Assembly: GCA_024682215.1 (NCBI GenBank)
Contig: JAIKZM010000099.1
Coordinates: 1 to 64,000, forward strand
Reading direction: 5' to 3'
Source of the DNA: Saccharofermentans sp.
GTDB lineage: Bacteria > Bacillota > Clostridia > Saccharofermentanales > Saccharofermentanaceae
DNA length: 64,000 nucleotides
Made by a program: the position numbers and the translations under genes. Positions 26,167 through 44,219 of the stretch are shown here, in pieces. Under the pieces are notes generated by a model, which saw nothing but the letters and a program-made list of their open reading frames with translations, made no database searches and was not told where the DNA came from. Positions within the stretch are counted from its first letter, which is position 1; the number at the start of each line of letters is the position of its first letter.

Positions 26167-27426
26167 ATGATAAATCTTTATATAGATCCCGGTACGGGAA
26201 GCATGTTGTTTACGATAGTCATCAGTGCGATCAGCGCTGTTGTCTATCTCATACGCATACTCATCATCAAAGCCAAGAACATGGCGGGTATCAAGAGCGC
26301 AAACGAGAGAAACGCCAAGAAGATCCCGATCGTCATTTTTTCCGACAACAAGAGATACTGGTCCACGTTCAGACCTATCTGCGAAGAGCTCGAAAAGCGC
26401 GGCCAGAATGCTGTTTACATGACGGCTTCTCCCGACGATCCGGCTCTTGAGGCCAAGTTCGAGCACATCAAATGCGAGTTCATCGGTGAGGGCAACAAGG
26501 CCTTTGCAAAGATGAACATGTTAAACGCCGGCATAGTCCTTTCGACGACGCCCTCCCTTGACGTTTTCCAGTGGAAGCGCTCGAAGACCGTAGATTATTA
26601 TGTCCATGTCGTCCACACGAGCGGCGACATTACTTTATACAGGCTTTACGGCGTCGACTATTATGACGCGCTCCTGCTTTCCGGAGAGTTCCAGGAAAAG
26701 CAGGTCAGAGAGCTTGAAAGACAGAGGAACCTTCCCGCAAAAGAGATCAGGATGATGGGCATCCCTTATCTCGATACGATGCTCAAGCATGCGCAGAATT
26801 TCCAGAGACCCGTGTCTGACACTACGACGGTGCTGCTCTCACCAACATGGGGATCCAATTCACTTCTCGTAAAATACGGCGAGAAGCTTATCGATAAGCT
26901 CGTTGAGACCGGATATGACATAATCATCCGTCCGCACCCGCAGTCTTTTACCGCCGACAGGGAGACCATCAAGCATCTCATGGAGAAGTATCCCGAAAGC
27001 AAGAGACTTCACTGGAACAGGGATAACAACAACTTCGATGTCCTTGCAAAATCAGACATCATGATCACGGATTATTCGGGCATCATGTACGATTTCACGC
27101 TGATATTCAACAAGCCGGTCATCTATACAGAAGCCGGTTTCAAGAAGGACCCTTATGACTGCTGGTGCATCGAAGGCGACACTTGGATGCTCAGCACCAT
27201 CAAAAAGATCGGCACGGAACTCAATGATGAGAATATCGGCCGTATCAAAGAGGTCATCGATACGAGCATCAAAGCAAGCAAGGAAACGACTCTGATCGAA
27301 GAGGCACGCAAAGAGACCTGGTGCAACATCGGCAAGAGCAGCGAACTCATTGCCGGCTATCTCATCGACAAACTTGCCGAGCTCGGGAACAAGGACAAAC
27401 CCGTCATAAAGGAGGAAAAAGCATGA
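26167..27426 (+). CDS. TagF/TagB-like CDP-alcohol phosphotransferase, membrane-anchored
   Basis: The N-terminus has the motif 'NLYIDPGTGSMLFT' followed by one membrane segment (about 12-35). The rest is a GT-B-like CDP-glycerol:poly(glycerophosphate) glycerophosphotransferase domain. Family positions include 'VVHTSGD' (candidate base His), 'MGIPYLDTM', 'LSPTWGSNSLL', 'IIRPHPQS' and 'DIMITDYSGIMYDF'. Known members build teichoic acid from CDP-glycerol or CDP-ribitol on the inner membrane face. Here the neighbours make CMP-linked phosphonates or CDP-amino alcohols, so the donor may differ. The stop overlaps the next gene's ATG by four bases. Paralogue at 44212. Confidence 0.85.
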   Translation: MINLYIDPGTGSMLFTIVISAISAVVYLIRILIIKAKNMAGIKSANERNAKKIPIVIFSDNKRYWSTFRPICEELEKRGQNAVYMTASPDDPALEAKFEHIKCEFIGEGNKAFAKMNMLNAGIVLSTTPSLDVFQWKRSKTVDYYVHVVHTSGDITLYRLYGVDYYDALLLSGEFQEKQVRELERQRNLPAKEIRMMGIPYLDTMLKHAQNFQRPVSDTTTVLLSPTWGSNSLLVKYGEKLIDKLVETGYDIIIRPHPQSFTADRETIKHLMEKYPESKRLHWNRDNNNFDVLAKSDIMITDYSGIMYDFTLIFNKPVIYTEAGFKKDPYDCWCIEGDTWMLSTIKKIGTELNDENIGRIKEVIDTSIKASKETTLIEEARKETWCNIGKSSELIAGYLIDKLAELGNKDKPVIKEEKA

Positions 27427-30044
27427 GTTTTCTGCATATCCTCTATCTCATAGCGCTTTACCCGATCGAATACCTCCTCGAGATGATCTTTTCGATCATA
27501 TCGAAGATGTCAGGCAACACCATTCTCTCGATCGTCATCCTCAGCCTTGTGGTAAACATCATCGTCCTGCCGCTGTATAACCGTGCGGACAAGATCCAGG
27601 AAGAGGCGAAGGACAAGGAGAATGCGATCGCCCCGATGGTGAAGCACATCAAGCAGACCTTCAGCGGTGACGAGAGGTTCATGCTCCTGCAGACCTGCTA
27701 CAGGCAGAACAACTACAGCCCTTTAAACGTAATGAAGAGCTCTGTTTCCATCCTTCTGCAGGTACCGTTCTTCATGGGCGCGTACAACATGCTTTCCGGA
27801 AACAAGCTCCTCGCGGGCGTCAGCCTCGGTCCCATTGCAAATCTCTCAAACCCTGACGCGCTTCTCACAGTCGGAGGCATCACGCTGAATGTCCTGCCGA
27901 TAATCATGACGCTGATAAACGTTGTATCGAGCTTTATCTATGCCAAGGGATTCCCGCTCAAGACCAAGATCCAGATGTACGGTCTTGCCGCGGTATTCCT
28001 CGTGCTGCTCTACCAGTCTCCTTCGGGACTCGTCCTTTACTGGATCTGCAACAACCTTTTCTCTCTCGGAAAGAACATCGTAAACAAGATCCTCAGCAAG
28101 AGGAAGAAGGCGCCCGCAGCAGAGCACGTCACCAGGGCTCCCGCTGTCAAGAACGACAAGAGATACAAGGCGGTCTTTACTTTCTCATGCCTTACGCTCG
28201 CCATCTATACAGGCTTCTATATTCCGGTCCTTACGGTTGCTGCCGCTCCGGAGGAATTCGTAAACCTCTACAGCATGGCAAATCCCATGATCGACATCAT
28301 CGACTCGACAGCCAAGGGATTCGGCCTTTTCATGCTCTGGCCGGTGATCTTCTTCGCGCTTGCTTCCGAAAAGGGAAAGAAGATCATGTCCTATGTCATG
28401 TTCATGCTCGCGGCATCGGCAATACTGAACTCAAAGCTTTTCAGCAATGATTTCGGCGACATCTCAAACTATCTCGAATACAAGGACAGCCCGTCATTTA
28501 CGCTTAAGGCAAAGCTCCTGAGCCTTGCCGTCACTCTGGGCGGCATCGCGGTCTGCTTCCTAATCAACCGTTTCGGCAAATACGTTGCCCCGGTCATCTG
28601 CCTTTCCGCTGCGATCGGATTTGCAGCCCTCGGCTTGACCAATGTCGGAAAGATCAGCGCAGGCTACAAAGAGGCTGAGAAATCCACTACCTCCAAGGCT
28701 GAATTCACTTTCTCAAAGAACGGAAAGAACGTTATCGTCATGATGGTGGACAGAGCGGTCGGCCCGATGGTCCCTTACATATTCAAGGAGAAGCCGGACC
28801 TCGCCAAGACCTATGACGGCTTTGTCTATTACCACAACGCGGCATCTTTCGGAACACATACGAATTCCGCGGTTCCCGCGCTCCTCGGAGGCTATGAATA
28901 CACTCCTGAGGCAATGAATGCCAGATCCGACAAACTCCTGCCCGACAAGTATGACGAGGCGCTCAAGCTCATGCCTTCCATCTTTACGAAGAGCGGCTTT
29001 GACGCGACGATGGTCAACCCTACATACGCCGGATACAAGTGGTATCCGGATCTCTCGGTATTCGACGGAATGGAGAACGTAAAGGCTTACAGCACCAAGT
29101 ATTCCTACCTCCCCGATGAGACGAAGGAGATCTATGAGAGCGAGCACAGCGAAGTCTTCAGACACAACCTGTTCTGCTATTCGATCTTCCAGTCGGCTCC
29201 GGTAGCGCTCCAGAAGGCCCTCTACGACGGCGGCAACTACAATGACACCAGAAGCGTTGACCCTTCACGCATGATCTCCCAGAAGAGGAACGGCAACTCC
29301 GTGGCTTACGGTCACGAGCAGACCTTCATGTGGGAATACTACATGGTAAAGAGCCTCGACCAGATGACAAAGATCGACGACGGCAGCGGAAATCATTACG
29401 TATACCTCGCGACCGACATCGCGCATGACGTCGAGATGCTCCAGGAGCCCGAGTACGAGCCCGGCAACACAGTCGACAACAGGAAGTACGACAAGAACCA
29501 TGCCAACAGGTTCATGCGCAGGGGCGAATTCATGTGGATGCGTGACGCCAAGGACTACAAGCACTACCAGTGCGACGTCCTTGCCTACACCCTCATAGGC
29601 AGATGGCTCGATTACCTTAAGGAGCAGGGCGTTTACGACAACACCAGGATCATCATCGTCGCCGATCACGGATACTATCTCGAGAATTTCCCCGAGATGC
29701 TCCAGCACGATGAGATAGGCACGAAGCTCGACGGCGAGGCATTCGCGCCGCTCCTCATGTTCAAGGATTTCGGCAGTCACGGTGACCTCAAGACTTCAGA
29801 GGAGTTCATGACGAATGCCGATACGCCTTATCTTGCCACTAAGGATCTCGTAAAAGATCCCGTCAACCCTTTTACCGGAAAACCGATAACGGATCAGGGA
29901 AAGAAGGGTACAATAACTGTATTCCATTCGAACAACTGGAATATCAGGAACAACAACGGATATGTTTATCAGCCCGGAGACTGGTTCAGTCTGAAGGACA
30001 GCATCTGGAAGAAGGAAAACTGGGGATATCTGGGAAATCATTAA
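27423..30044 (+). CDS. YidC/Oxa1-like domain fused to LtaS-like phosphotransferase, copy 1
   Basis: Residues 1 to about 226 match the YidC/Oxa1 membrane core: 'LPLYNRADKIQEEA', 'YSPLNVMKSSVSILLQVPFF', 'LGPIANLSNPD' and 'SPSGLVLYWICNNLFSL'. A further five-helix bundle (about 245-410) precedes an extracellular alkaline-phosphatase-superfamily domain (about 430-873). Candidate active residues are Asp443 ('MMVDRA'), Thr480 ('THTNS'), His668 ('DIAHD') and Asp748-His749 ('VADHG'), the order found in LtaS. The groove arginine of true YidC is Asn45 here. AAAGGAGG supports the ATG at 27423; the ORF track began too early at 27321. Copy 1 is the most divergent in its membrane part. Likely role: moving a phospho- or phosphono-group to a surface polymer. 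Confidence 0.85.
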   Translation: MSFLHILYLIALYPIEYLLEMIFSIISKMSGNTILSIVILSLVVNIIVLPLYNRADKIQEEAKDKENAIAPMVKHIKQTFSGDERFMLLQTCYRQNNYSPLNVMKSSVSILLQVPFFMGAYNMLSGNKLLAGVSLGPIANLSNPDALLTVGGITLNVLPIIMTLINVVSSFIYAKGFPLKTKIQMYGLAAVFLVLLYQSPSGLVLYWICNNLFSLGKNIVNKILSKRKKAPAAEHVTRAPAVKNDKRYKAVFTFSCLTLAIYTGFYIPVLTVAAAPEEFVNLYSMANPMIDIIDSTAKGFGLFMLWPVIFFALASEKGKKIMSYVMFMLAASAILNSKLFSNDFGDISNYLEYKDSPSFTLKAKLLSLAVTLGGIAVCFLINRFGKYVAPVICLSAAIGFAALGLTNVGKISAGYKEAEKSTTSKAEFTFSKNGKNVIVMMVDRAVGPMVPYIFKEKPDLAKTYDGFVYYHNAASFGTHTNSAVPALLGGYEYTPEAMNARSDKLLPDKYDEALKLMPSIFTKSGFDATMVNPTYAGYKWYPDLSVFDGMENVKAYSTKYSYLPDETKEIYESEHSEVFRHNLFCYSIFQSAPVALQKALYDGGNYNDTRSVDPSRMISQKRNGNSVAYGHEQTFMWEYYMVKSLDQMTKIDDGSGNHYVYLATDIAHDVEMLQEPEYEPGNTVDNRKYDKNHANRFMRRGEFMWMRDAKDYKHYQCDVLAYTLIGRWLDYLKEQGVYDNTRIIIVADHGYYLENFPEMLQHDEIGTKLDGEAFAPLLMFKDFGSHGDLKTSEEFMTNADTPYLATKDLVKDPVNPFTGKPITDQGKKGTITVFHSNNWNIRNNNGYVYQPGDWFSLKDSIWKKENWGYLGNH

Positions 30045-30070: not shown

Positions 30071-31873
30071 ATGCAGGCATTGATACTCGCGGCCGGAATG
30101 GGCAAAAGGCTCAAGGAACTGACACAGAACAATACCAAGTGCATGGTCAAAGTCGGCGGGGTAACGCTCATTGACCGCATGCTCCATCAGATAGAGAAAC
30201 AGGACATCTCAAGGATCGTCATAGTAGTCGGATACGAGGGCAAAAAGCTCATCGACTACATTTCCACGCTTGATATAAAGACTCCGATCGAGTATGTCGA
30301 AAACCCGATCTACGACAAGACCAACAACATCTATTCGCTCGCGCTTGCCAAGGACTGGCTCTGCAAAGAGGATACGCTTCTTTTCGAGTCAGACCTGATC
30401 TTCGAGGATTCGGTCCTGGATCTTCTGGTCAATGACCCCAGGGACACCCTGGCACTCGTCGACAAGTTCGAGAGCTGGATGGACGGTACCTGCGTCAAGC
30501 TTTCAAAAGACGACAGGATCACGTCCTTCGTTTCGAAAAAGGAATTCCGTTTCGAGGACAAGGACGAGTATTTCAAGACGGTCAACATAAGCAAGTTCAG
30601 CAGGGACTTCTCCGAGAGGTACTATGTACCTTTCCTCGATGCTTACGAGAAGGCCCTCGGCAACAACAAATACTATGAGGAAGTCCTCAAGGTCATTACG
30701 ATCCTTGACGTTCCGAGGATCAGGGCAAGACGCCTTGAGGGACAGCTTTGGTATGAGATCGACGATGCGCAGGATCTGGACATCGCCGAATCGCTTTTCG
30801 CAGGCACGCCTGACGAGCAGGCTGCGCTTATCCAGGGAAGATACGGCGGATACTGGAGATATCCGAAGATGAAGGATTTCTGCTATCTGGTAAATCCTTA
30901 TTTCCCGCCCAGGAAGATGCTCGATGAGATCAAGGCAAACTTTGACATACTGATCTCGCAGTATCCGTCGGGGATGCGCGTAAATTCGCTCCTCGCGGCA
31001 AAGAACTTCAATGTTCACACCGAGAACATCATCGTCGGCAACGGTGCCGCGGAGCTCATCAAGTCGCTGATGTCACAGTTCAGCGGCAAGACAGGCTTTA
31101 TCAGGCCGACTTTCGAGGAATATCCGCACAGATACAGCGAACCCGATGCGGTAAGCCTCGTTCCGAACAACCCCGATTTCTCATACACGGCGGATGACAT
31201 AATGACCTTCTTTGAAGGCAAGGGCATCTCCCAGATCGTAATAGTCAACCCCGACAACCCGTCAGGCAACTACATCCCGAAGAAGGATCTTTTAAGGCTC
31301 GTTGACTGGACCGGGGAAAAGGGCATCAAGCTCGTCATCGACGAGTCATTTGTTGATTTCGCGGATGAGCAGGATCCCACCCTCATCGACCGTGAGCTCC
31401 TCGACAGCAACCCGCATCTCTATGTCATGAAGAGCATCTCAAAGTCCTACGGCGTTCCGGGCTTAAGGCTCGGCGTGCTCGCATCCGGTGACATCGCCAC
31501 GATCGCGAGGATGAAGAAGGACGTTTCGATCTGGAACATCAACTCCTTCGCCGAGTTCTACATGCAGATCGAGGAGAAGTACAACAGTTATTATGACGAG
31601 GCACTGGTAAAGATCAGGGCAGAGAGGGCAAGGTTTGCCGGAGAACTCGGCAAGATCGAGGGCATCCGCATAATACCTTCCCAGGCCAATTACATTATGG
31701 TCGAGCTTAAGAACGCTTCGCCGAGAGAACTGCTCAAGGCACTTCTTTTCAAGCATCAGATCCTGGTCAAGGACCTTTCGTCCAAGACCGGAGGAAGATA
31801 TCTGAGGATCGCCGTAAGGAACACCGAAGACAACGATCTGCTCATTGAGGCTCTCAAAGAAGAACTCAAGTGA
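30071..31873 (+). CDS. LicC-like nucleotidyltransferase fused to CobD-like aminotransferase (PntC-like)
   Basis: Residues 1 to about 235 form a sugar-nucleotidyltransferase fold of the LicC type ('LAAGMGKRLKELT', 'VENPIYDKTNNIYSL', 'ESDLIFEDS'). Residues 260-600 are a fold-type I PLP enzyme close to CobD/HisC ('NPDNPSGNY', 'IDESFVDF', 'KSISKSYGVPGLRLG' with PLP lysine Lys458). The arrangement resembles PntC, a cytidylyltransferase/aminoethylphosphonate transaminase fusion, suggesting synthesis of CMP-2-aminoethylphosphonate. The CobD-like features also allow decarboxylation of phosphoserine or phosphothreonine followed by CDP-amino-alcohol formation. GAGGTG precedes the start. Confidence 0.82.
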   Translation: MQALILAAGMGKRLKELTQNNTKCMVKVGGVTLIDRMLHQIEKQDISRIVIVVGYEGKKLIDYISTLDIKTPIEYVENPIYDKTNNIYSLALAKDWLCKEDTLLFESDLIFEDSVLDLLVNDPRDTLALVDKFESWMDGTCVKLSKDDRITSFVSKKEFRFEDKDEYFKTVNISKFSRDFSERYYVPFLDAYEKALGNNKYYEEVLKVITILDVPRIRARRLEGQLWYEIDDAQDLDIAESLFAGTPDEQAALIQGRYGGYWRYPKMKDFCYLVNPYFPPRKMLDEIKANFDILISQYPSGMRVNSLLAAKNFNVHTENIIVGNGAAELIKSLMSQFSGKTGFIRPTFEEYPHRYSEPDAVSLVPNNPDFSYTADDIMTFFEGKGISQIVIVNPDNPSGNYIPKKDLLRLVDWTGEKGIKLVIDESFVDFADEQDPTLIDRELLDSNPHLYVMKSISKSYGVPGLRLGVLASGDIATIARMKKDVSIWNINSFAEFYMQIEEKYNSYYDEALVKIRAERARFAGELGKIEGIRIIPSQANYIMVELKNASPRELLKALLFKHQILVKDLSSKTGGRYLRIAVRNTEDNDLLIEALKEELK

Positions 31874-31947: not shown

Positions 31948-34575
31948 ATGCTGTTTTTTCAATATCTTTACGCACTGGTAATCGGACCTCTTGAACTGGT
32001 CTTCAAGATCATCTTTTCGATATTCAACAAGTACATTCCGTTCACCGGAGTGAACATCCTGCTGCTCAGCCTCGCGTTCAGCCTTCTGGTACTGCCTTTG
32101 TACATGAGGGCGGACAAGATCCAGGAAGAGGCAAGGGAACAGGAAGACAGGCTCGGCCCGACGATCAAGCACATCAAGCAGTATTTCAAGGGCGACGAGC
32201 GCTTCATGATCCTGCAGACGTTCTACAGACAGAACAACTACAGTCCTTTGGGCGTACTGAGAAGCTCAGTTTCACTCCTCCTGCAGGTCCCGTTCTTCCT
32301 TGCGGCTTACAGGATGCTCTCAAACAACACATATCTTCAGAACAAGTCGTTCGGCCCCATCAGCAACCTGAGCCAGCCTGACGCGATGCTCGCTATCGGC
32401 GGAGTTGCCATAAACGTCCTGCCTTTCGTGATGACCGCGATCAACCTCATATCTGCTGCGGTATACGCGAACAAGATGCCCGTCAAATCAAAGATCCAGC
32501 TCTGGATCATGGCGGCTCTTTTCCTTGTCCTGCTCTACAGATCACCTTCGGGAATGGTCCTCTACTGGACATGCAACAACCTGTTCTCGCTGGTCAAGAA
32601 CATCATCAACAGAATCATCTCATCGAAGAAGAAAGTTAAGGCAGAGAAGTCCGCGAAGGCAAAGAAGACTCTTAAGAACGAGCCCGCATACAGGGGCGTA
32701 TTCTTCTTCTCCTGCCTCACATGCGCCGTTTACATCGGCTTCTATCTCCCCATGATCACGGTAGCTTCCGCACCTGAGGAATTCGTTAACCTTTATACGA
32801 TGGCTCATCCGATCCTGGACATCCTCGAAGCAACATGCAAGGGCTTTGGACTCTTCCTTCTCTGGCCGACGATCTTCTACGCTATGGCATCGAAGACCGG
32901 CAGGAAGATCATGTCTTACGTAATGTTCAGCATCGCGATCTCTTCGATCCTGAATTCAAAGCTCTTCAGCAGCGGCTCCGGCGACATGTCGAACACGCTG
33001 ATCTATAAGGATACTTCACTCAAGATCAATCTGCAGAACACTCTCCTGAGCCTCGGCATTACTCTTGGCGCAATAGCGGTCGCATTCCTTCTGACCCGTT
33101 TCGGCAGGAACATAACGCCGGTCATATGCTTCTCGGCAGCCCTGGTCTTCGCGGTGCTCGGACTGACCGAGATCGGAAAGATCAACGCCGGTTATGCGGA
33201 AGACTTAAGATCAGAGACATCCAAGGCGGAGATCCCGCTCTCCAAGGACGGAAAGAACGTTGTTGTCATCATGACGGACAGGGCGATAGGACCCATGCTG
33301 CCTTACATCTTCAACGAGAAGAAGGAATTAAGGACCGTTTACGACGGTTTTACCTATTATCACAACACTGCTTCTTTCGGAACACATACGAACTTCGGTG
33401 TTCCTTCGCTCCTCGGCGGATATGAATATACTCCCGCGGAGATGAACAAGCGCTCAGACAAGCTCCTCGGCGACGATCATCTTGAAGCACTTAAGCTCAT
33501 GCCCAAGATCTTCACCCAGGCAGGCTTCAAGGCAACCGTCATCAACCCGAAATATGCCGGCTACCAGTGGTATCCGGATCTTTCCGTTTTCAATGACATT
33601 GAAAACATGAAGGCATACAGCACGAAATACTCTTATCTGCCTGAAGAGATGAAGGAAGGATACAAGGAGGAGCAGACGACCGCATTCAGGTTCAACCTGT
33701 TCGGTTATTCGCTCTTCAGATCCGCTCCCGTGGCACTTCACAAGACCCTGTATGACGAAGGAAACTACAACGAGACAAGAGTCATCGATCCTTCGCGCCT
33801 CATGGATCAGAGAAGATCGGGCAACTCAAAGGCAACAGGTCATGAACAGGTCTTCATGTGGGATTATCACACGCTGAAGGCAATGAACAGCATGACGAAG
33901 ATAGAGGACGGCGGAACAGGCAATTTCGTATACATCGGCTTTGATACATGCCATGACTCGGAGTTCCTCCAGGAGCCCGAATATGAGCCTGCTGACGTAG
34001 TCGACAACACAAAGTTCGACAAGTCCCAGAAGGGCCAGTCAAGGTTCCTTCTTAAGGGCGAGATGATGTGGATGAGAGATGCAAAGGACTTCAGAAACTA
34101 CCAGTGCAATCTCGCTACGTTAAGAGAACTCGGAAAGTGGCTCGATCACCTCAAGGAGACCGGCTGCTATGACAACACGAGGATCATCATCGTCGCCGAC
34201 CACGGTTATTACATCGAAAACTTCCCGAACCTTCTGATGTATGACATCGGAGCAAAGCTCGACGGCGAGGCCTTCGCGCCGCTCCTTCTCGTCAAGGATT
34301 TTAACAGCCGCGGCAAGCTTAAGACATCCGAAGAGTTCATGACGAATGCCGATACTCCTTATCTTGCGACAAAGGATATCATCAGCAACCCCACGAATCC
34401 TTTTACGGGTAATCCGATAACCGACGAAGGAAAGAAGAACGGGATCACCGTATTCCATTCCGAATCCTGGAAGGTTCACTATAACAACGGAACAACTTAC
34501 AAGCCCGGTGACTGGTACACAGTCAAGGACAGCATTTGGAAGACCGAGAACTGGAAATATCTCGGACACTATTGA
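31948..34575 (+). CDS. YidC/Oxa1-like domain fused to LtaS-like phosphotransferase, copy 2
   Basis: This 875-residue paralogue has the same three parts: YidC-like core, five-helix bundle and extracellular domain. The active-site set is kept: 'IMTDRAIGP', 'GTHTNFGV', 'DTCHDSEFL' and 'VADHGYY'. The groove position is Ser45 ('LSLAFSLLVLPLY') instead of arginine. It ends with 'SIWKTENWKYLG', a C-terminal motif found in all four copies. It has its own promoter and AAGGGAGA, 12 bases from the ATG. Copies 2 and 3 look closest to each other. There is no sign of frameshift, so all copies seem functional. Confidence 0.85.
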   Translation: MLFFQYLYALVIGPLELVFKIIFSIFNKYIPFTGVNILLLSLAFSLLVLPLYMRADKIQEEAREQEDRLGPTIKHIKQYFKGDERFMILQTFYRQNNYSPLGVLRSSVSLLLQVPFFLAAYRMLSNNTYLQNKSFGPISNLSQPDAMLAIGGVAINVLPFVMTAINLISAAVYANKMPVKSKIQLWIMAALFLVLLYRSPSGMVLYWTCNNLFSLVKNIINRIISSKKKVKAEKSAKAKKTLKNEPAYRGVFFFSCLTCAVYIGFYLPMITVASAPEEFVNLYTMAHPILDILEATCKGFGLFLLWPTIFYAMASKTGRKIMSYVMFSIAISSILNSKLFSSGSGDMSNTLIYKDTSLKINLQNTLLSLGITLGAIAVAFLLTRFGRNITPVICFSAALVFAVLGLTEIGKINAGYAEDLRSETSKAEIPLSKDGKNVVVIMTDRAIGPMLPYIFNEKKELRTVYDGFTYYHNTASFGTHTNFGVPSLLGGYEYTPAEMNKRSDKLLGDDHLEALKLMPKIFTQAGFKATVINPKYAGYQWYPDLSVFNDIENMKAYSTKYSYLPEEMKEGYKEEQTTAFRFNLFGYSLFRSAPVALHKTLYDEGNYNETRVIDPSRLMDQRRSGNSKATGHEQVFMWDYHTLKAMNSMTKIEDGGTGNFVYIGFDTCHDSEFLQEPEYEPADVVDNTKFDKSQKGQSRFLLKGEMMWMRDAKDFRNYQCNLATLRELGKWLDHLKETGCYDNTRIIIVADHGYYIENFPNLLMYDIGAKLDGEAFAPLLLVKDFNSRGKLKTSEEFMTNADTPYLATKDIISNPTNPFTGNPITDEGKKNGITVFHSESWKVHYNNGTTYKPGDWYTVKDSIWKTENWKYLGHY

Positions 34576-34596: not shown

Positions 34597-37221
34597 ATGC
34601 AGATACTATCGTGGCTATACCAGCTGATAATCGGACCGATACAGCTCATATTCGGTATTATATTTTCGGTATTAAATAAATATATCCATATTCCCGGAGT
34701 GAACATCATGCTCCTGAGCCTCGTGTTCAGCCTTATCGTTCTGCCGCTGTACATGCGTGCGGACAAGATCCAGGAGGAAGCCAGGGAAGACGAGGAGCGC
34801 TTAGGACCCGTCATCAAGCACATCAAGCAGTACTTCAAGGGCGATGAGCGCTTCATGATACTGCAGACATACTACAGGCAGAACAACTACAGCCCCCTCG
34901 GAGTCTTGAGAAGTACTGTCTCACTGCTTTTGCAGGTTCCGTTCTTCCTCGCGGCATACAGGATGCTCCACGACAACATCTATCTCGCAGGCGCTTCATT
35001 CGGCCCGATCAAGGACCTGGGAAGCCCTGATGCTCTGCTCACAGTCGGTGCGGTAACCATCAACATCCTGCCTTTTGTCATGACCGCGATCAACCTGATC
35101 TCAGCTGCGGTCTATGCAAACAAGATGCCGCTGAAATCGAAGATCCAGCTTCTCGCGATGGCTGCGGTATTCCTCGTGCTGCTCTACAATTCCCCTTCGG
35201 GAATGGTCCTCTACTGGACATGCAACAATCTGTTCTCGCTCGTAAAGAACATCATCAACAGGATCGTTTCCTCAAAGAAGAAGGTTAAGGCTGAAAAGCC
35301 TGCAAAGGAAGGGAAGAGCCTCAAGAACGCTCCCGCTTACAAGGCAGTGTTCATCTTCGCGTGCCTCACATGCGCTGTCTACATGGGCCTGTATCTGCCT
35401 ATGATGACGGTCGCTGCAGCACCTGAAGAATTCGTCAACCTCTACACTTACCAGCACCCCATGTATGACGTTCTGGATTCCGTTGCAAAAGGTTTCGGAC
35501 TCTTCCTTCTCTGGCCGTCGATCTTCTATGCGATGGCATCAAAGGGCGGCAGAAAGATCATGGCTTATGTCATGCCGATGCTCGCTGTTTCGGCTATCCT
35601 TAACTCAAAGCTCTTCAGCAACAACTTCGGAAACATGTCGAAGCACCTTGTTTATAACGGCGATCCCGAATTTACTGTGAAGAACATCCTGATCAGCCTT
35701 GCAGTTACGGCAGCCGGCTGTATTGTGATCTTCCTTGCCGTACGTTTCGGAAGAATGGCCACACCGATGATTTTCTTCTCGGCGGCACTTGTTTTCGCGA
35801 TCCTCGGACTGACCAACATCGGAAAGATCGACGACGGATACAAAAAGTCTGCAAGATCAACCACTTCCAAGGCTGAAATGACCCTTTCCAAGAACGGAAA
35901 GAACGTCGTGGTCATCATGGCGGACAGAGCCGTAGGACCTTTCATCCCGTTCCTTTTCAATGAGAAAAAAGAGCTCAGGACACAGTTTGACGGCTTTACC
36001 TACTATCACAACACGGCTTCTTACAGCGCACATACGAACTCCGCTGCTCCGGGTCTTCTCGGAGGATATGAATATACTCCTACCGAGATGAACAAGCGCG
36101 ACAACAAGCTGATGCCCGAGAAGTTCGATGAAGCTTTGAAGGTCATGCCGCTCATCTTTACGAAGGAAGGCTATGACGCGACTCTCATCAATCCTAAATT
36201 TGCAGGCTATCAGTGGTACCCTGACGTCAGCGTATTTGACGGCATGGAGAACGTTAAGGCATACAGCACGAAGTACTCTTATCTGCCCGAAGAACTTAAG
36301 GAAGGCTACAAGCAGGAGAATACGGAGTGCTTCAGACTGCACCTGTTCTGCTATTCGCTCTTTAAAGCGGCTCCCGTAGCGCTCCAGTCCACGCTCTACG
36401 ATGACGGCAACTACAACGACGTAAGGAATGTTCCGCCTTCAAGGCTCATTGACCAGCACAGGAGCGGAAACTATATAGCCAAGGGTCATGAGCAGCCTTT
36501 CATCTGGGATTACTACACGATGAAGGCGATCAACTCGTTCACCAATGTTGAAGACAACGATAAGAATCACTTTATCTATTTCGGAACCGACATGACTCAT
36601 GACACACAGCTCCTTTCAGAGCCTTCTTATGAGCCTGCCGATACCGTCAACAACACAAAGTATGCCAAGTCACCCAAGGGCCAGTCCAGGTTCCTTAACA
36701 AGGGCCAGATGGCATGGGTCAAGGACTCGATGGATTTCAGGCATTACCAGTGTGACATGGCTGCACTCCTCGGCATCGGCAGATGGCTTGATTACCTGAA
36801 AGAGCAGGGAGTCTATGACAACACGAGGATCATCATCGTTTCAGACCACGGATTCCACCTTGAGAACTTCCCTGAAATGATGGAACAGAACCTCGGAAGA
36901 AACCTCGACGGCGAGTCATATGCTCCGCTTCTCATGGTCAAGGATTTTAACAGCCGCGGAAGCCTTGTGACGAACAATGATTTCATGACGAATGCCGATA
37001 CTCCTTATCTTGCGACAAAGGACATCATCAGCAACCCCGTCAATCCTTATACCGGCAATCCCATAACCGATCAGGGCAAGAAGGACGGTGTCATGATCTA
37101 CCGTTCCGACCACTGGAACCCCAAGAACAACATGGGTTACACCTATTCAGAGGGCGACTGGTTCTTCGTAAACAACGACATCTGGAAGATCGAAAACTGG
37201 AAATATCTGGGCACCCGCTGA
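34597..37221 (+). CDS. YidC/Oxa1-like domain fused to LtaS-like phosphotransferase, copy 3
   Basis: The 874-residue paralogue starts 21 bases after copy 2 with AAGGAG at 34577-34582, and is probably on the same transcript. Its YidC-like core ('SPLGVLRSTVSLLLQVPFFLAAYRML') is nearly the same as in copy 2. The extracellular domain keeps 'IMADRAVGP', 'SAHTNSAA', 'DMTHDTQLL' and 'VSDHGFH'. Differences cluster in loops around the likely active site, for example SAHTN where copies 1 and 2 have GTHTN. Different substrates or polymer positions are therefore possible. It ends 'DIWKIENWKYLG'. Confidence 0.85.
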   Translation: MQILSWLYQLIIGPIQLIFGIIFSVLNKYIHIPGVNIMLLSLVFSLIVLPLYMRADKIQEEAREDEERLGPVIKHIKQYFKGDERFMILQTYYRQNNYSPLGVLRSTVSLLLQVPFFLAAYRMLHDNIYLAGASFGPIKDLGSPDALLTVGAVTINILPFVMTAINLISAAVYANKMPLKSKIQLLAMAAVFLVLLYNSPSGMVLYWTCNNLFSLVKNIINRIVSSKKKVKAEKPAKEGKSLKNAPAYKAVFIFACLTCAVYMGLYLPMMTVAAAPEEFVNLYTYQHPMYDVLDSVAKGFGLFLLWPSIFYAMASKGGRKIMAYVMPMLAVSAILNSKLFSNNFGNMSKHLVYNGDPEFTVKNILISLAVTAAGCIVIFLAVRFGRMATPMIFFSAALVFAILGLTNIGKIDDGYKKSARSTTSKAEMTLSKNGKNVVVIMADRAVGPFIPFLFNEKKELRTQFDGFTYYHNTASYSAHTNSAAPGLLGGYEYTPTEMNKRDNKLMPEKFDEALKVMPLIFTKEGYDATLINPKFAGYQWYPDVSVFDGMENVKAYSTKYSYLPEELKEGYKQENTECFRLHLFCYSLFKAAPVALQSTLYDDGNYNDVRNVPPSRLIDQHRSGNYIAKGHEQPFIWDYYTMKAINSFTNVEDNDKNHFIYFGTDMTHDTQLLSEPSYEPADTVNNTKYAKSPKGQSRFLNKGQMAWVKDSMDFRHYQCDMAALLGIGRWLDYLKEQGVYDNTRIIIVSDHGFHLENFPEMMEQNLGRNLDGESYAPLLMVKDFNSRGSLVTNNDFMTNADTPYLATKDIISNPVNPYTGNPITDQGKKDGVMIYRSDHWNPKNNMGYTYSEGDWFFVNNDIWKIENWKYLGTR

Positions 37222-37338: not shown

Positions 37339-39939
37339 ATGCAATTCTTTTCGGAGCTTTACGCGCTGATAATCGGACCGATAGAACTGGTATTCGAGAT
37401 CATATTCTCGGTGCTTAACAAGCACATCCATATTTCCGGTGTAAACATCATGCTCCTGAGCCTTGTGTTCAGCCTTATCGTCCTGCCTCTTTATATGCGC
37501 GCGGATAAGATACAGGAAGAAGCAAGGGACGCTGAAGAGCGTTTAGGCCCCGTCATCAAGCACATCAAGCAGTACTTCAAGGGCGACGAGCGCTTCATGA
37601 TCCTGCAGACTTACTACAGGCAGAACGATTACAGCCCGCTTTCCGTACTCAAGAGCTCCGTCTCACTGATGCTTCAGATCCCGTTCTTTCTTGCCGCATA
37701 CAGGATGCTCCACGATAACATGTATCTCGTCGGCTCATCATTCGGCCCCATCAAGGATCTGGGAAGCCCCGATGCTCTCATCGCTGCAGGCTCCGTAACG
37801 ATCAACGTTCTCCCGTTCGTAATGACTGCGGTTAACCTTCTTTCAGCAGCCGTCTATGCAAATAAGATGCCTTTCAAGTCAAAGGTCCAGCTCTTCATCA
37901 TGGCTGCTCTCTTCCTTGTACTGCTCTACAATTCCCCTGCGGGAATGGTCCTTTACTGGACATGCAACAACCTGTTCTCACTCGTAAAGAACATCGTGAT
38001 GAAGATCGTCTCCGGCAAAAAGAAGCCCGCTTCCGTATCAGAGAAGCCCAAGAAGGCTCCCAAGGATTCCAAGGGCTACAAGGGACTCTTCATCTTCTCA
38101 TGCATCGCATGCGCCGCGCTTACGGGAATCTACCTTCCGATGTCAGTCCTCTCCGCTTCACCCGAAGAGTTCGTCGATATGCAGACTCTGGCACACCCCA
38201 TGGTCTATGTACTCCGTTCCATTGTCATGGCAACGGGTCTTTTCGTTATCTGGCCTTCAGTCTTCCGCGCGATGTCTTCGCAGAAGGGCAGGAAGGTCAT
38301 TTCTTTTGTAATGTTTGCTCTTGCTGCAGGAATCGTTGTCAACAGCCACCTCTTCAGCAACGGCTACGGAATGATGTCGAACGTTCTTGTTTATGACGTC
38401 TTCCCGGTATTCGATACCAAGACAAAGCTCCTGAGCCTTGCAGCCACAATAGGTGCTGCTGCAGTCGCAGTGGTCATCGCGAAGTTCGGCAGGAACATTG
38501 CGACAGTCATAGCGCTTTCGATGGCTCTCGTTTTCGCAGGACTCGGAATATCCAAGACGGGCGCGATCAACCGCGGTTACATCGATGCAAGGAAGGCCGT
38601 TACCGACAACGATCCTGAGTTCACTCTTTCAAAGAACGGTAAGAACGTAGTCGTTCTCATGCTCGACCGTGCCCTGGGCCCCATGATCCCTTACCTCTTC
38701 AACGAGAACAAGTCACTCGGAAAGTCCTTCGACGGATTTACCTACTATCACAACACCATGTCCTATGGTGCATATACGAATTTCGCAACCCCGGCACTGT
38801 ACGGCGGATACGAATACACTCCCGAGAGGGTCAACGAGCGTTCGTCCGAGCGTCTTGTGGACAAGCAGAACGAGGCACTCAAGGTAATGCCCGTCATGTT
38901 CTCCAAGGCAGGCTTCAACGCAACGATCGTCAATCCTTCCTACGCAGGCTACAAGTGGAATTCAGACCTTACCGTATTTGACGGACTCGAGAGAGTAAGC
39001 GCATACAATACGCTCTTCCGTTACGTTCCGGTCAATTACGGCGAGTCATACCAGACAACGGTAAGACGCAATCTTTTCTGCTATTCGCTCTACAAGGGCG
39101 CGCCTGTAGCTCTTCAGCCTTATCTGTATGACAACGGCACATATAACGAGACTTCCGTGACCGACTGGTCGACCGCACCCCAGGTGCAGCGCGGAAGCAC
39201 CATCGCAAGCGGCCACAACAAAGAGTTCGAGGCCGAGTACTGGGCAGTCAACTCACTCGACAAGATGACGAAGATCGATGAGGGAAGCAGCAACAATTAC
39301 CTGTTCTTCAATTCGCGCGTTGCCCACGAGGAGCAGCTCCTCCAGGAGCCCGAGTACGCGCCTGCCGATCATGTAAACAACACAAAGTATGATCAGGAGA
39401 ACAAGAGCAGGTTCAAGGTCAACGGCAAGATGATGCTCATGATCGACAGCGTCGACTACCAGCATTATCAGGTAAATATGGCTGGTCTCATGGCAGTTGC
39501 GAAATGGCTTGATTATCTTAAGGCAAATGACTGTTATGATAACACCAGGATCATAATCGTTTCGGATCACGGCTTCGGCCTTTCAAACTTCTCCGATCTC
39601 CTGATCACGGGCGCGCACCAGATCGATGCGGAATGGTTTACGCCCCTGCTCATGGTAAAGGATTTCGGAAGCCGCGGTGAGCTCAGCCAGTCCGAAGAGT
39701 TCATGACGAATGCCGATACTCCGTATCTCGCATCACAGGGAGTGATCGAGAACCCCGTAAATCCTTTCACGGGAAAGGCGATCACGAACGATGCAAAGAA
39801 CGGCGAACAGAAGATCATTTACTCCGGCGAGTGGGGCGTAGATAAGAACAACGGAAATACCTTTAAGCCGGGACAGTGGTATTCCGTAAAAGAAAACATC
39901 TGGAAAAAAGGAAACTGGAAATATCTGGGAGGTTATTGA
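37339..39939 (+). CDS. YidC/Oxa1-like domain fused to LtaS-like phosphotransferase, copy 4
   Basis: The 866-residue paralogue has a YidC-like half very close to copies 2 and 3 but the most divergent extracellular half. The nucleophile region is 'GAYTNFATPALYGGYEY' (Tyr in place of His before the likely Thr) and the His motif is 'SRVAHEEQLL', while 'LMLDRALGP' and 'VSDHGFG' are kept. This mix of conserved metal ligands with changed neighbours suggests another acceptor or donor. The TGA overlaps the ATG of the PEP mutase fusion gene by one base, which ties this copy most closely to the phosphonate genes. Confidence 0.85.
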   Translation: MQFFSELYALIIGPIELVFEIIFSVLNKHIHISGVNIMLLSLVFSLIVLPLYMRADKIQEEARDAEERLGPVIKHIKQYFKGDERFMILQTYYRQNDYSPLSVLKSSVSLMLQIPFFLAAYRMLHDNMYLVGSSFGPIKDLGSPDALIAAGSVTINVLPFVMTAVNLLSAAVYANKMPFKSKVQLFIMAALFLVLLYNSPAGMVLYWTCNNLFSLVKNIVMKIVSGKKKPASVSEKPKKAPKDSKGYKGLFIFSCIACAALTGIYLPMSVLSASPEEFVDMQTLAHPMVYVLRSIVMATGLFVIWPSVFRAMSSQKGRKVISFVMFALAAGIVVNSHLFSNGYGMMSNVLVYDVFPVFDTKTKLLSLAATIGAAAVAVVIAKFGRNIATVIALSMALVFAGLGISKTGAINRGYIDARKAVTDNDPEFTLSKNGKNVVVLMLDRALGPMIPYLFNENKSLGKSFDGFTYYHNTMSYGAYTNFATPALYGGYEYTPERVNERSSERLVDKQNEALKVMPVMFSKAGFNATIVNPSYAGYKWNSDLTVFDGLERVSAYNTLFRYVPVNYGESYQTTVRRNLFCYSLYKGAPVALQPYLYDNGTYNETSVTDWSTAPQVQRGSTIASGHNKEFEAEYWAVNSLDKMTKIDEGSSNNYLFFNSRVAHEEQLLQEPEYAPADHVNNTKYDQENKSRFKVNGKMMLMIDSVDYQHYQVNMAGLMAVAKWLDYLKANDCYDNTRIIIVSDHGFGLSNFSDLLITGAHQIDAEWFTPLLMVKDFGSRGELSQSEEFMTNADTPYLASQGVIENPVNPFTGKAITNDAKNGEQKIIYSGEWGVDKNNGNTFKPGQWYSVKENIWKKGNWKYLGGY

Positions 39940-41951
39940 TGAAAGCATTAATTCTTAATTCAGGACTCGGAAAGAGAATGGGAACCCTTACGAGTGAGCA
40001 CCCCAAGTGCATGACGGAGCTTTCCGTCGGCGAGACCATCGTGAGCCGCCAGTTAAAGCAGCTCGCTGAAGTCGGCATCACGGATGTCGTAATGACTACC
40101 GGACCTTTCGTCGACATTCTCGAAGGCTACATCAAGTCGCTGAATCTTGATCTCGACATCAAGTTCGTAAACAATCCCATCTATGACAAGACGAATTACA
40201 TCTATTCGATCTATATGGCAAGAGAGCTCCTCAAGGGTGATGACCTCATCCTGATGCACGGCGACCTTGTTTTCGAGAATGCTGTTCTTGACGGCATCCT
40301 CGCTCAGCAGTCAGCAATGGCTGTATCTTCGACCATCCCGCTTCCCGAGAAGGACTTCAAGGCAGTCATCAAGGACGGTGAGATCAAGAAGGTCGGCATC
40401 GAGTTCTTCGATGATGCTCTCGCTGCACAGCCCCTCTACAGGTTCACAAAGGAAGACTGGGAGACATGGCTCGATTCCATCGTCAAGTTCTGCGAAGAGG
40501 GCACGACAGGCTGCTACGCAGAGAATGCCCTCAATGTCGTAACAGACAATACGCACATCATTCCTTATGACGTTAAGGACGGTCTCTGCGGCGAGGTTGA
40601 CAACCCTGAGGATCTCGCAGTCATGAGCGCAAGACTTGAAGAGGTCAAGTCCAGGAAGGTATATGTCTGCTTCTCAACCGACATCCTTCACTCAGGCCAC
40701 CTCAACATCCTCAGAAGGGCAGCAAGGCTCGGACATCTCATCGTAGGTGTCATGAGCGATGAGGCTGTCGCTTCCTACAAGAGATTCCCGCTCGTTCCCT
40801 GTGAGGAGCGCAAGGCAATGTTCAAGTCCATCAAGAACGTATGGAAAGTTGTTGAGCAGGATACTCTGAGCTACAAAGACGTTATCGAAAAGTATCACCC
40901 CGACATCATCGTTCACGGCGACAACTGGAAGGAAGGCTTCCAGAAGCCGATCAGGGACGAGGTCATAGAGCTCCTCGGAGCATACGGCGGACAGCTCGTT
41001 GAGTTCCCTTATTCGTCAGATCCCAAGTACAAGGAAGTTGACGCAAGGAGCAGACTTGAGCTCTCACTCCCTGACAACAGAAGAGGAAGGCTCAGAAAGC
41101 TTATCGCAATGAAGGGCCTCGTTACCATGATGGAAGCTCATGACGGTATCTCCGGACTCATCGTTGAGAACACCGTTGTTCACGATGACACAGGTGCTTC
41201 CTACCAGTTCGACGGCATGTGGGTATCTTCACTCTGCGACTCCACTGCAAAGGGCAAGCCCGACATCGAGCTCGTTGACATGACATCAAGATTCAGAACT
41301 ATCGACGATATCACGGAAGTCACCACAAAGCCGATCATCTTCGACGGCGATACCGGCGGACTTACCGAGCACTTCGTCTACACAGTCCGTTCACTTGAGA
41401 AGCTCGGCGTATCCGCTGTCATCATCGAGGACAAGAAGGGCTTAAAGAAGAACTCACTTTTCGGTACCGAGGTCAAGCAGACGCAGGCTACGATCGAAGA
41501 GATGAGCGAGAAGATCGCAGCAGGCAAGAGAGCACAGAAGTCAGCAGACTTCATGATCATCGCGCGTATCGAGTCCCTCATCCTCGAGCAGGGAATGGAG
41601 GACGCTCTTACCAGAGCATTCGCTTTCGTCAAGGCAGGCGCTGACGGCATCATGATCCACTCACGCCGCACAGAACCTGATGAGATCATCGAGTTCATCA
41701 ACAAATTCAGGGAGCAGGATAAGATCACTCCGATCGTCATCGTTCCCACTTCATTCCACTCCGTCAAGGAAGAGGAATGGAAGAAGATCGGCGTTAACGT
41801 TGTCATCTACGCAAACCAGCTCATGAGAGCAGAGGTTCCCGCAATGCAGCAGACAGCCGAGGAGATCTTAAAGAACCACAGAGCCCAGGAAGCAGACGAG
41901 CACCTCATGGGCTTCAAGCAGATCATCAGACTGATCCCTGATGAGATCTAA
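39939..41951 (+). CDS. pepM: Triple fusion: LicC-like nucleotidyltransferase, HxGH cytidylyltransferase, PEP mutase
   Basis: PEP mutase makes phosphonopyruvate, the first C-P bond of nearly all natural phosphonates. The C-terminal domain (about 385-670) has the diagnostic EDK-x5-NS motif as 'EDKKGLKKNS' (497-506). The middle domain (about 235-370) is a cytidylyltransferase with 'HSGH' at 251-254. The N-terminal domain (1-230) is a second, structurally unrelated nucleotidyltransferase ('LNSGLGKRMGTLTSEHPKCM'). A cytidylyltransferase-PEP mutase pair is known; the third domain is unusual. The start is 39939 with GGGAGG upstream; the ORF track began 63 bases too early. Its product pairs with the decarboxylase and reductase that follow. 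Confidence 0.9.
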   Translation: MKALILNSGLGKRMGTLTSEHPKCMTELSVGETIVSRQLKQLAEVGITDVVMTTGPFVDILEGYIKSLNLDLDIKFVNNPIYDKTNYIYSIYMARELLKGDDLILMHGDLVFENAVLDGILAQQSAMAVSSTIPLPEKDFKAVIKDGEIKKVGIEFFDDALAAQPLYRFTKEDWETWLDSIVKFCEEGTTGCYAENALNVVTDNTHIIPYDVKDGLCGEVDNPEDLAVMSARLEEVKSRKVYVCFSTDILHSGHLNILRRAARLGHLIVGVMSDEAVASYKRFPLVPCEERKAMFKSIKNVWKVVEQDTLSYKDVIEKYHPDIIVHGDNWKEGFQKPIRDEVIELLGAYGGQLVEFPYSSDPKYKEVDARSRLELSLPDNRRGRLRKLIAMKGLVTMMEAHDGISGLIVENTVVHDDTGASYQFDGMWVSSLCDSTAKGKPDIELVDMTSRFRTIDDITEVTTKPIIFDGDTGGLTEHFVYTVRSLEKLGVSAVIIEDKKGLKKNSLFGTEVKQTQATIEEMSEKIAAGKRAQKSADFMIIARIESLILEQGMEDALTRAFAFVKAGADGIMIHSRRTEPDEIIEFINKFREQDKITPIVIVPTSFHSVKEEEWKKIGVNVVIYANQLMRAEVPAMQQTAEEILKNHRAQEADEHLMGFKQIIRLIPDEI

Positions 41952-41961
41952 AGGAATACAA

Positions 41962-43071
41962 ATGGAACAGTTAGTATTAAGCAGTGAAAACGGTTACGCC
42001 GAGCTGAACGGATATCTTGCAGACAACAACATCTGCAATATCTTCCTTGTCTGCGACAGCGCTTTCGGATTCCTCAAGATCAAGGATTACTTTGACGGAC
42101 TTGAGGAAGACGGAATAGAGATCACGAGGTTCGACGATTTCCAGCCGAACCCGCTCTACGAGTCAGTCGTTGAAGGCGTAAGGCTCTTTAATGAATCCGG
42201 CGCGAAGATCATCATCGCTGTCGGCGGGGGCTCTGCAATGGATGTTGCAAAGTGCATCAAGCTCTACAGCAACATGGATCCCTCAAAGAACTACCTTGAG
42301 CAGGAGATCGTCCCCAACGATGTCGTTCTTCTCGCGGTCCCCACGACTGCGGGAACGGGCTCTGAGGCGACGAGATATGCGGTAATCTATTACGGTGGAA
42401 AGAAGCAGAGCGTTGCGGACTATTCGATAATCCCTTCAGTGGTCCTTTTCGATGAGTCGGCTCTCGAGACGCTTCCTCTGTATCAGAAGAAGGCAACGGT
42501 CCTCGATGCTTTCTGCCATGCGATTGAATCCTACTGGTCAGTCAACAGCAACGATGAGAGCAAGGAATATTCAAGGAAGGCCGTCAGCGGCATCCTTACA
42601 AACCTTGACGCTTATCTTGCGAACGATAAGGATGCGAACCGCGCCATGATGACCGCCGCACACTACGCAGGCAAGGCCATCAACATCACGCAGACGACCG
42701 CAGGCCACGCGATGTGCTACAAGCTCACGAGCCTCTACGGCGTAGCTCACGGACATGCCGCGGCACTCGTTGATACGAAGCTTTTCCCTTACATGGTCTC
42801 CCATACGGAGGGCTGCGTTGATCCGAGAGGCGGGGATTATCTGAAGAAGACATTCGGCGAGATCGCTTCAATGCTCGGATGCGCCACTGTTGACGAGGCA
42901 TGCGCAAAGCTCCAGAAGATCTTTGATTCACTCGAACTCAAAGTGCCTGAGGCAAAGGAAGAGGATTATGCCGAACTCAAGACTTCGGTAAATCCCGTAA
43001 GACTTAAGAACAACCCGGTAAAGCTGACCGAAGATGCGATCGAGTCTCTCTACCGTGAAATACTGAAATAA
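41962..43071 (+). CDS. Iron-containing alcohol dehydrogenase, likely phosphonoacetaldehyde reductase
   Basis: The family III alcohol dehydrogenase features are present: 'VGGGSAMDVAK' for the nucleotide, and metal ligands in 'LDAFCHAIESYW' and 'GVAHGHAAAL'. Related enzymes in phosphonate clusters (PhpC/FomC type) reduce phosphonoacetaldehyde to 2-hydroxyethylphosphonate. Its place between PEP mutase and phosphonopyruvate decarboxylase makes this the best call. The ORF track starts at 41941 inside the previous gene; the ATG at 41962 has AAAGGAA six bases upstream and gives 369 residues. Confidence 0.85.
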   Translation: MEQLVLSSENGYAELNGYLADNNICNIFLVCDSAFGFLKIKDYFDGLEEDGIEITRFDDFQPNPLYESVVEGVRLFNESGAKIIIAVGGGSAMDVAKCIKLYSNMDPSKNYLEQEIVPNDVVLLAVPTTAGTGSEATRYAVIYYGGKKQSVADYSIIPSVVLFDESALETLPLYQKKATVLDAFCHAIESYWSVNSNDESKEYSRKAVSGILTNLDAYLANDKDANRAMMTAAHYAGKAINITQTTAGHAMCYKLTSLYGVAHGHAAALVDTKLFPYMVSHTEGCVDPRGGDYLKKTFGEIASMLGCATVDEACAKLQKIFDSLELKVPEAKEEDYAELKTSVNPVRLKNNPVKLTEDAIESLYREILK

Positions 43072-43094: not shown

Positions 43095-44219
43095 ATGAAA
43101 GTTGAAAGCCTGATTGAAATCTTAGGTGCGGACTTCTACACGGGAGTTCCGGATTCCCAGCTCAAAGCTCTCTGCAACTTCCTGATGAGCAAGTACGGGA
43201 TCGACAGCAAGCATCACATGATCGCTGCAAACGAAGGAAACTGCGCCGCTCTGGCTGCAGGCTACCATATGGCGACAGGAAAGATCCCTGTCGTTTACAT
43301 GCAGAACTCCGGCGAAGGCAACATCATCAACCCGCTTGCATCTCTCGTAAATGACAAGGTCTATGCCATCCCGACGATCTACATTGTCGGCTGGAGAGGC
43401 GAGCCCGGCACAAAGGACGAGCCCCAGCACATCTATCAGGGAATCGTCACACGCACGCTCCTTGACGACATGGACGTTAAGAATTTCGTCATAACAAAGG
43501 AAACCACCGAAGACGAGCTCAAGTCCGCCATGACAGAGTTCGCACCGATCCTTGCAGCAGGCAAGCAGGTTGCTTTCGTAGTTTCCAAGGGCGCTCTTTC
43601 ATTCGACGGAAAGGTCGATTACAGGAATTCCTACAGCCTCAACCGTGAGGAAGTCATCGGCCATATCGCAAAGGCTGCAGGCGAATCCCCGATCGTTTCA
43701 ACGACGGGCAAGATCTCCCGCGAGCTTTTCGAATACAGAACAAATAACGGCATGAGCCACAAGTATGATTTTCTTACTGTCGGCTCAATGGGCCACTGCT
43801 CATCCATTGCACTGGGCATCGCGATCAACAAGCCCGATCTCAAGATCTGGTGCATCGACGGTGACGGCGCTGCGCTGATGCACATGGGCGCAATGGCAGT
43901 CATCGGATCCAACAAGCCTTCCAACATGATCCATGTCGTCATCAACAACGGCGCGCATGAGACAGTCGGAGGCATGCCTACGGTAGCATCCGATTCTTCC
44001 GTCAACCTTCCCGCTGTCGCTGCGGCATGCGGATATCCTTATACCGTTTCAGTAGATAATTTCGAAGACTTAGACAGAGAGCTTGAAGCTGCAAAGAACA
44101 GGGGAGCCCTCTCGTTGATAGAAGTAAAATGTCAGGTAGGAGCAAGAGACGACCTCGGCAGGCCGACAACGACCGCGCTTGAGAACAAGAATAATTTCAT
44201 GGAGTACATCAATGGCTAA
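43095..44219 (+). CDS. ppd: Phosphonopyruvate decarboxylase
   Basis: This thiamine-diphosphate enzyme decarboxylates phosphonopyruvate to phosphonoacetaldehyde and pulls the unfavourable PEP mutase reaction forward. It opens with 'LGADFYTGVPDSQLKALCNFL', typical of the family, and has the activating glutamate in 'AANEGNCAALAAGY'. The TPP-Mg motif is 'IDGDGAALMHMGAM...VINNGAHETVGGMPT'. At 374 residues it has the normal length for phosphonopyruvate decarboxylase and is shorter than sulfopyruvate or general decarboxylases. Its stop overlaps the next gene by eight bases. AAGGATGA lies before the start. Confidence 0.93.
   Translation: MKVESLIEILGADFYTGVPDSQLKALCNFLMSKYGIDSKHHMIAANEGNCAALAAGYHMATGKIPVVYMQNSGEGNIINPLASLVNDKVYAIPTIYIVGWRGEPGTKDEPQHIYQGIVTRTLLDDMDVKNFVITKETTEDELKSAMTEFAPILAAGKQVAFVVSKGALSFDGKVDYRNSYSLNREEVIGHIAKAAGESPIVSTTGKISRELFEYRTNNGMSHKYDFLTVGSMGHCSSIALGIAINKPDLKIWCIDGDGAALMHMGAMAVIGSNKPSNMIHVVINNGAHETVGGMPTVASDSSVNLPAVAAACGYPYTVSVDNFEDLDRELEAAKNRGALSLIEVKCQVGARDDLGRPTTTALENKNNFMEYING

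Follow-up and report, generated by a model that had tools for sequence, protein, structure and literature searches.

The question raised by this locus is what a protein makes when it joins a nucleotidyltransferase to a PLP-dependent enzyme and is encoded close to a PEP mutase. The open reading frame at 30071-31873 (+ strand) of the window, by which is meant the whole 64-kb stretch of DNA that was analysed, encodes 600 aa; it starts with ATG, has the sequence GAGGTG just 5' of the start and contains no internal stops. The product is a PntC/LicC-like nucleotidyltransferase followed by a class I/II PLP enzyme (Table 1), with the conserved domains NTP_transf_3 (MobA/LicC-like; aa 3-120) and Aminotran_1_2 (aa 314-595). 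This is the PntC-like order that a sequence-only reading of the locus had described, and the strings 'NPHLYVMKSISKSYGVPGLRLG' and 'SQANYIMVE', which the same reading had placed in the PLP half, are both present verbatim. The same protein is encoded near full length, at 67-95% identity, by 80 further loci of the genome collection, so the fusion is real and widespread and not an assembly accident. Its hosts are mostly gut Clostridia (MAGs and isolates), with some Erysipelotrichia and Spirochaetes and one Coriobacteriales MAG. The fusion of one locus (L074) was excluded because the coordinates taken for it include a stop within the frame. No activity assay was found in the literature for any member of this family.

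Table 1. Features of the window around the fusion gene (positions in the window)
Feature	Position	Strand	Basis or remark
TagF1, TagF-like (CDP-glycerol glycerophosphotransferase family), candidate transferase for the fusion product	26167..27426	+	PF04464
YidC/Oxa1 + sulfatase-fold fusion, copy 1	27321..30044	+	60KD_IMP, Sulfatase; true start probably ~27420
Fusion, N-terminal nucleotidyltransferase half (aa 1-245), predicted cytidylyltransferase	30071..30805	+	NTP_transf_3, PDB matches, conserved residues
Fusion, C-terminal PLP half (aa 246-600), CobD/SMUL_1544-like fold-type I, predicted O-phospho-L-serine decarboxylase	30806..31873	+	PDB, Foldseek, trees
YidC/Oxa1 + sulfatase-fold fusion, copy 2	31948..34575	+	60KD_IMP, Sulfatase
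YidC/Oxa1 + sulfatase-fold fusion, copy 3	34597..37221	+	Paralogue of copy 2 by sequence
YidC/Oxa1 + sulfatase-fold fusion, copy 4	37339..39939	+	Paralogue of copy 2 by sequence
NTP_transferase - cytidylyltransferase - PEP mutase triple fusion	39939..41951	+	Pfam; TIGR02320 394.6 bits, over cut-off
Fe-ADH, predicted phosphonoacetaldehyde reductase giving 2-hydroxyethylphosphonate	41968..43071	+	Between triple-fusion PEPM and Ppd in L132-L140
Phosphonopyruvate decarboxylase (Ppd)	43095..44219	+	TIGR03297 448.8 bits, over cut-off
TagF2, TagF-like transferase of the phosphonate module	44206..45519	+	PF04464; Ppd-adjacent TagF clade

Among PDB sequences, the N-terminal half is most similar to PntC (6pd1, E-value: 6e-15, aa 2-239), followed by LicC (1jyk, 3e-12). 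R13 and K23 are invariant in the fusions and K157 is conserved in at least 90% of them; they correspond to PntC R15, K25 and K153, whose alanine mutants have less than 10% activity (PMC6697681). E106, also invariant, corresponds to PntC E104, which sits near the primary amine and is replaced by Asp in LicC (PMC6697681). The retention of these residues agrees with a cytidylyltransferase acting on a small primary amine, and this half is predicted to be such an enzyme, with ethanolamine phosphate and 2-aminoethylphosphonate (AEP) both possible substrates. The closeness to PntC and the near-isosteric character of the two compounds speak for a functional analogue of PntC, whose PLP half would convert phosphonoacetaldehyde to AEP and whose N-terminal half would then form CMP-AEP. 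As set out below, the distribution of the fusion makes this unlikely.

The PLP half is most similar to 6oux (E-value: 1e-44), an entry titled 'Structure of SMUL_1544, a decarboxylase from Sulfurospirillum multivorans'. It is followed by 3ftb (4e-32) and Salmonella CobD 1lc5 (3e-31), with HisC at 4e-23 or weaker. A Foldseek search with an AlphaFold model built from 55 sequences (mean pLDDT 87.8; a single-sequence model, with pLDDT 36, was unusable) also gave 6oux as the top PDB match (E-value: 4.9e-27), then CobD and, by its two-domain layout, PntC-AEPT. In a maximum-likelihood tree that is effectively unrooted, the fusions and SMUL_1544 form one clade (100/99) apart from CobD and HisC. Because that tree is silent on proximity to one or the other, aspartate-aminotransferase-type sequences were added as outgroups; in the rooted tree the fusions, SMUL_1544 and CobD form a clade (100/100) that excludes HisC. 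Constraining the fusions and SMUL_1544 to group with HisC was rejected (p = 0.023), as was grouping the fusions with CobD to the exclusion of SMUL_1544 (p = 0.012).

The NCBIfam models rank in the same order, CobD (TIGR01140, 180 bits) above HisC (TIGR01141, 152.8 bits), with both scores under the curated cut-offs (290.55 and 276.55 bits, respectively). The sequence-only reading had called the PLP half CobD-like and had named a clear grouping with HisC in a phylogeny of this domain, together with histidinol-phosphate activity, as the outcome that would speak against it; the rooted clade with CobD and the rank of the CobD model agree with that description, and no grouping with HisC appeared. 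The protein was rejected as CobD proper, since its score lies far under the CobD cut-off and it belongs to its own clade with SMUL_1544 instead of falling inside CobD. A histidinol-phosphate aminotransferase fused to a nucleotidyltransferase can be practically dismissed: HisC is the second NCBIfam model, but its score is under cut-off, the trees exclude it, the window's own genome has a HisC over cut-off on contig C120 (286 bits) and no his gene is found among the recurrent neighbour families scanned.

Motifs are shared by the fusion and SMUL_1544 (CYLVNPY vs CYLSNPY, or CYLxNPY, and WNIN in both) at positions where Salmonella CobD has SANINPL and WSVN. Of the 55 aligned fusions, 54 retain the PLP lysine, K458, and all have R579 near the C-terminus. 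The exception at K458 is the homologue at L083:10001-11809, in which Glu replaces it, reflecting either a sequence error or a dead PLP half. Every aligned fusion (55/55) has Lys567 at the position of CobD Arg323, where SMUL_1544 and the aligned HisC, like CobD, have Arg; the fusions may therefore differ in substrate specificity.

By sequence alone, the PLP half is compatible with either a decarboxylase or a Cj1437-like transaminase. The best reading, to which a probability of roughly 0.6 is given, is that the fusion acts as a phosphoserine decarboxylase and cytidylyltransferase and would make CDP-ethanolamine for a TagF- or LicD-type transferase. Phosphoserine decarboxylation followed by formation of a CDP-amino alcohol had been one option of the sequence-only reading, and it is favoured by the clade with SMUL_1544 and CobD and by the absence of PEP mutase discussed below. 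Decarboxylation of phosphoserine has a precedent in surface glycan synthesis, Cj1436 of C. jejuni (PMC11800397). The evidence that counts against CDP-ethanolamine is the Lys567 change and the position of Ppd directly upstream of the fusion in two genomes (G170 and G106). Lys567 might mark another substrate, and the C. jejuni capsule enzyme Cj1437 transaminates DHAP (PMC11800397); the corresponding reading, in which a DHAP transaminase would form (S)-serinol phosphate for conversion to CDP-serinol, is nonetheless improbable, since the nearest solved relative is titled a decarboxylase and the clade lies on the CobD side in a tree without Cj1437. A phosphothreonine decarboxylase like CobD, giving CDP-1-amino-2-propanol, would agree with CobD as the best named model and with the CobD-side clade. 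This is very doubtful given the score of 180 against 290.55 bits, the changes at the positions of CobD N32 and R323, and the presence in Bilifractor porci of a separate CobD-like gene beside a CobQ-like gene in addition to the fusion.

The relation of the fusion to PEP mutase (PEPM) bears on the choice between CDP-ethanolamine and CMP-AEP. PEPM is over cut-off in 13 of 35 fusion-bearing genomes and absent from the other 22, although single absences are soft because some genomes are incomplete. Isolates with the fusion and without PEPM include Schaedlerella arabinosiphila, Bullifex porci, R. flavefaciens XPD3002, the two Butyrivibrio isolates MC2021 and VCB2006, Bilifractor porci and Erysipelotrichaceae NK3D112. 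In an order-wide count of 188 genomes, 29 have the fusion and 93 have PEPM. Within the window's genus the two occur independently, with PEPM in 21/26 fusion-positive and 47/59 fusion-negative genomes. They lie within ~12 kb of each other in 11 genomes of the genus (the window and 10 others), which favours a PntC analogue; the linkage takes three arrangements, and shared surface islands are therefore common. No column of the fusion alignment divides PEPM-linked from PEPM-unlinked proteins, and PEPM-linked fusions were for this reason rejected as a functional subtype.

Individual genomes point both ways. One (G179) combines the fusion with a true PhnW-AepZ, scoring over cut-off, that belongs to a PEPM/Ppd set on a different contig. 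At two loci (L120 and L121) the fusion adjoins a class V aminotransferase (best model TIGR03301, under cut-off) and a separate nucleotidyltransferase with CTP_transf-PEPM. Both arrangements argue against a PntC analogue, and AEP transamination was rejected as the family function given the true PhnW of G179 and the many fusion genomes without PEPM. In favour of the analogue, Ppd is directly upstream of the fusion at L123 (G170:C81) and L127 (G106:C3), PEPM is visible in G170 in the order PEPM-Ppd-fusion, and no close Fe-ADH was found in either genome (each ~69% complete). The G170 fusion, which shares a contig with L017, does not depart from the others at the invariant residues. Because of these two genomes the phosphonate option, though lowered, is kept. 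Phosphonoacetaldehyde, which the sequence-only reading had offered as a substrate, is left unsupported by the 22 genomes without PEPM and the independent occurrence in the genus. The phosphonate link of the fusion is probably incidental, and domain order together with proximity to PEP mutase is insufficient to call a PntC.

The window's 2-hydroxyethylphosphonate module is complete by gene content (PEPM, Fe-ADH, Ppd and TagF2). Its PEPM - Fe-ADH - Ppd set recurs in nine loci of the genus (L132-L140) with no fusion adjoining, and the predicted fate of phosphonoacetaldehyde is therefore reduction to 2-hydroxyethylphosphonate. The idea that the cluster offers two fates for this compound gains no support, as a dedicated Fe-ADH stands beside Ppd and the module recurs without an adjacent fusion. 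TagFs near fusions are also found in loci that have no PEPM, and the TagF2s next to Ppd are nested as a clade in the TagF tree (support 100), which would fit capture of a TagF copy by the phosphonate module. The PEP mutase of the window carries an NTP_transf_3 and a CTP_transf_like domain, nucleotidyltransferases of different kinds. A 2019 count of RefSeq gave 42 such triple fusions (PMC6697681), and the genus contains several frames of this length. The four tandem YidC/Oxa1-sulfatase/alkaline-phosphatase-superfamily paralogues (~870 aa each) recur with TagF-like genes elsewhere. A profile search of the window's own genome gave no PhnW over cut-off. The nearest candidate is a class V aminotransferase adjoining a SerA over cut-off (L156, G000:C17:10500-19000) and is more likely a phosphoserine aminotransferase, probably a non-canonical one; the SerC model TIGR01364 has no matches in this genome.

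Gene neighbours of the relatives were compared in 73 loci that differ in type from the window locus; genes adjoining the fusion on its strand were set against the other flanking genes. The p values assume independent loci, which these are not fully. A member of the octopine-dehydrogenase (OctDH) family adjoins the fusion 24 times (odds ratio 42, p 3e-17), a member of the ornithine-cyclodeaminase (OCD)/mu-crystallin family 12 times (odds ratio 25, p 3e-8) and LicD 15 times (odds ratio 6.7, p 3e-6). One or the other opine-type dehydrogenase is adjacent in 36/73 loci. The OctDH-like neighbour matches octopine dehydrogenase and N-(1-D-carboxylethyl)-L-norvaline dehydrogenase (CENDH). N-[(R)-1-carboxyethyl]ethanolamine phosphate is known from O-antigens (PMC9630907), and the presence of opine-type dehydrogenases and LicD beside the fusions fits N-(carboxyethyl)ethanolamine phosphate as a surface substituent. 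Mf1, a LicD-family enzyme, transfers phosphoethanolamine from CDP-ethanolamine in vitro (PMC11982090), and one LicD neighbour matches the Mf1 model, under cut-off. The locus L071:8875-11812 is an example of the fusion beside OctDH-like, OCD/mu-crystallin-like and LicD genes, as in many gut Clostridia; no described function was found in the literature for this module. The window's genome (~85% complete) has no octopine-dehydrogenase or LicD matches, and TagF probably replaces LicD there.

The analysis shows the architecture of the fusion, its catalytic residues, its clade, the associations with neighbouring genes and, within the genus, the independence from PEP mutase. In the CDP-ethanolamine pathway proposed on this basis, what we infer are the two substrates and the product, together with the transferase and the acceptor. 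Phosphoserine would be supplied by SerA and the neighbouring class V aminotransferase. The PLP half would decarboxylate O-phospho-L-serine to ethanolamine phosphate, which the N-terminal half would convert with CTP to CDP-ethanolamine. A phosphotransferase (TagF1 here, LicD in many relatives) would then pass ethanolamine phosphate to a cell-surface polymer, and in about half of the relatives the amine is probably carboxyalkylated by the opine-type dehydrogenase encoded beside the fusion. This pathway would be separate from the 2-hydroxyethylphosphonate module and run alongside it. More tentatively, the fusions may constitute an unnamed, widespread family of gut Clostridia that takes phosphoserine directly to CDP-ethanolamine, with no free ethanolamine, ethanolamine kinase or phosphatidylethanolamine, and that, with opine-type dehydrogenases and LicD or TagF transferases, places ethanolamine phosphate or its N-(carboxyalkyl) derivative on surface polymers. 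If so, a single protein would provide a de novo route from an intermediate of the serine pathway to the activated donor with which surfaces receive zwitterionic modifications, and would do so in many species of the gut and rumen in which automatic annotation says only aminotransferase. N-carboxyalkyl ethanolamine phosphate would then be predicted on Clostridial surfaces, where it could be sought by NMR.

Among known systems, PntC-AEPT of Treponema denticola (Tde1415, 6PD1/6PD2) has the same cytidylyltransferase-PLP order in ~600 aa. The N-terminal halves are homologous, and the fusion keeps the catalytic Arg/Lys/Lys and the amine-contacting Glu. PntC-AEPT has a class V AEP transaminase, however, whereas the PLP half of the fusion is class I/II and CobD-like (Aminotran_1_2, no Aminotran_5), and the sequence match of 6pd1 is confined to the N-terminal half. 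PEP mutase is also missing from most of the fusion genomes tested. The phosphocholine cytidylyltransferase LicC is homologous to the N-terminal half as well, and a LicD transferase is encoded nearby in many fusion loci. LicC differs in its Asp105 and its aromatic box for choline, the fusion having Glu106 as PntC does.

For the PLP half, the threonine-phosphate decarboxylase CobD is the sister group of the fusion/SMUL_1544 clade, with the PLP lysine and one C-terminal Arg conserved in both. The CobD family cut-off is far above the fusion score, the N32 and R323 positions are changed, and no cobalamin genes were seen around the fusion. Cj1436 and Cj1437 of Campylobacter jejuni, likened to the fusion by description, are PLP enzymes that make ethanolamine phosphate and serinol phosphate, respectively, for surface polysaccharide. 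Their product goes to amide formation, unlike the CDP route proposed here, and to our knowledge neither is fused to a cytidylyltransferase. By sequence, fold and tree, the nearest solved relative is SMUL_1544 (6OUX) of Sulfurospirillum multivorans, a stand-alone protein encoded in a cobamide cluster, with Arg where all fusions have Lys567. It reportedly governs norcobamide biosynthesis and is said, in work attributed to Keller in 2016, to use phosphoserine, the substrate predicted here for the fusion.
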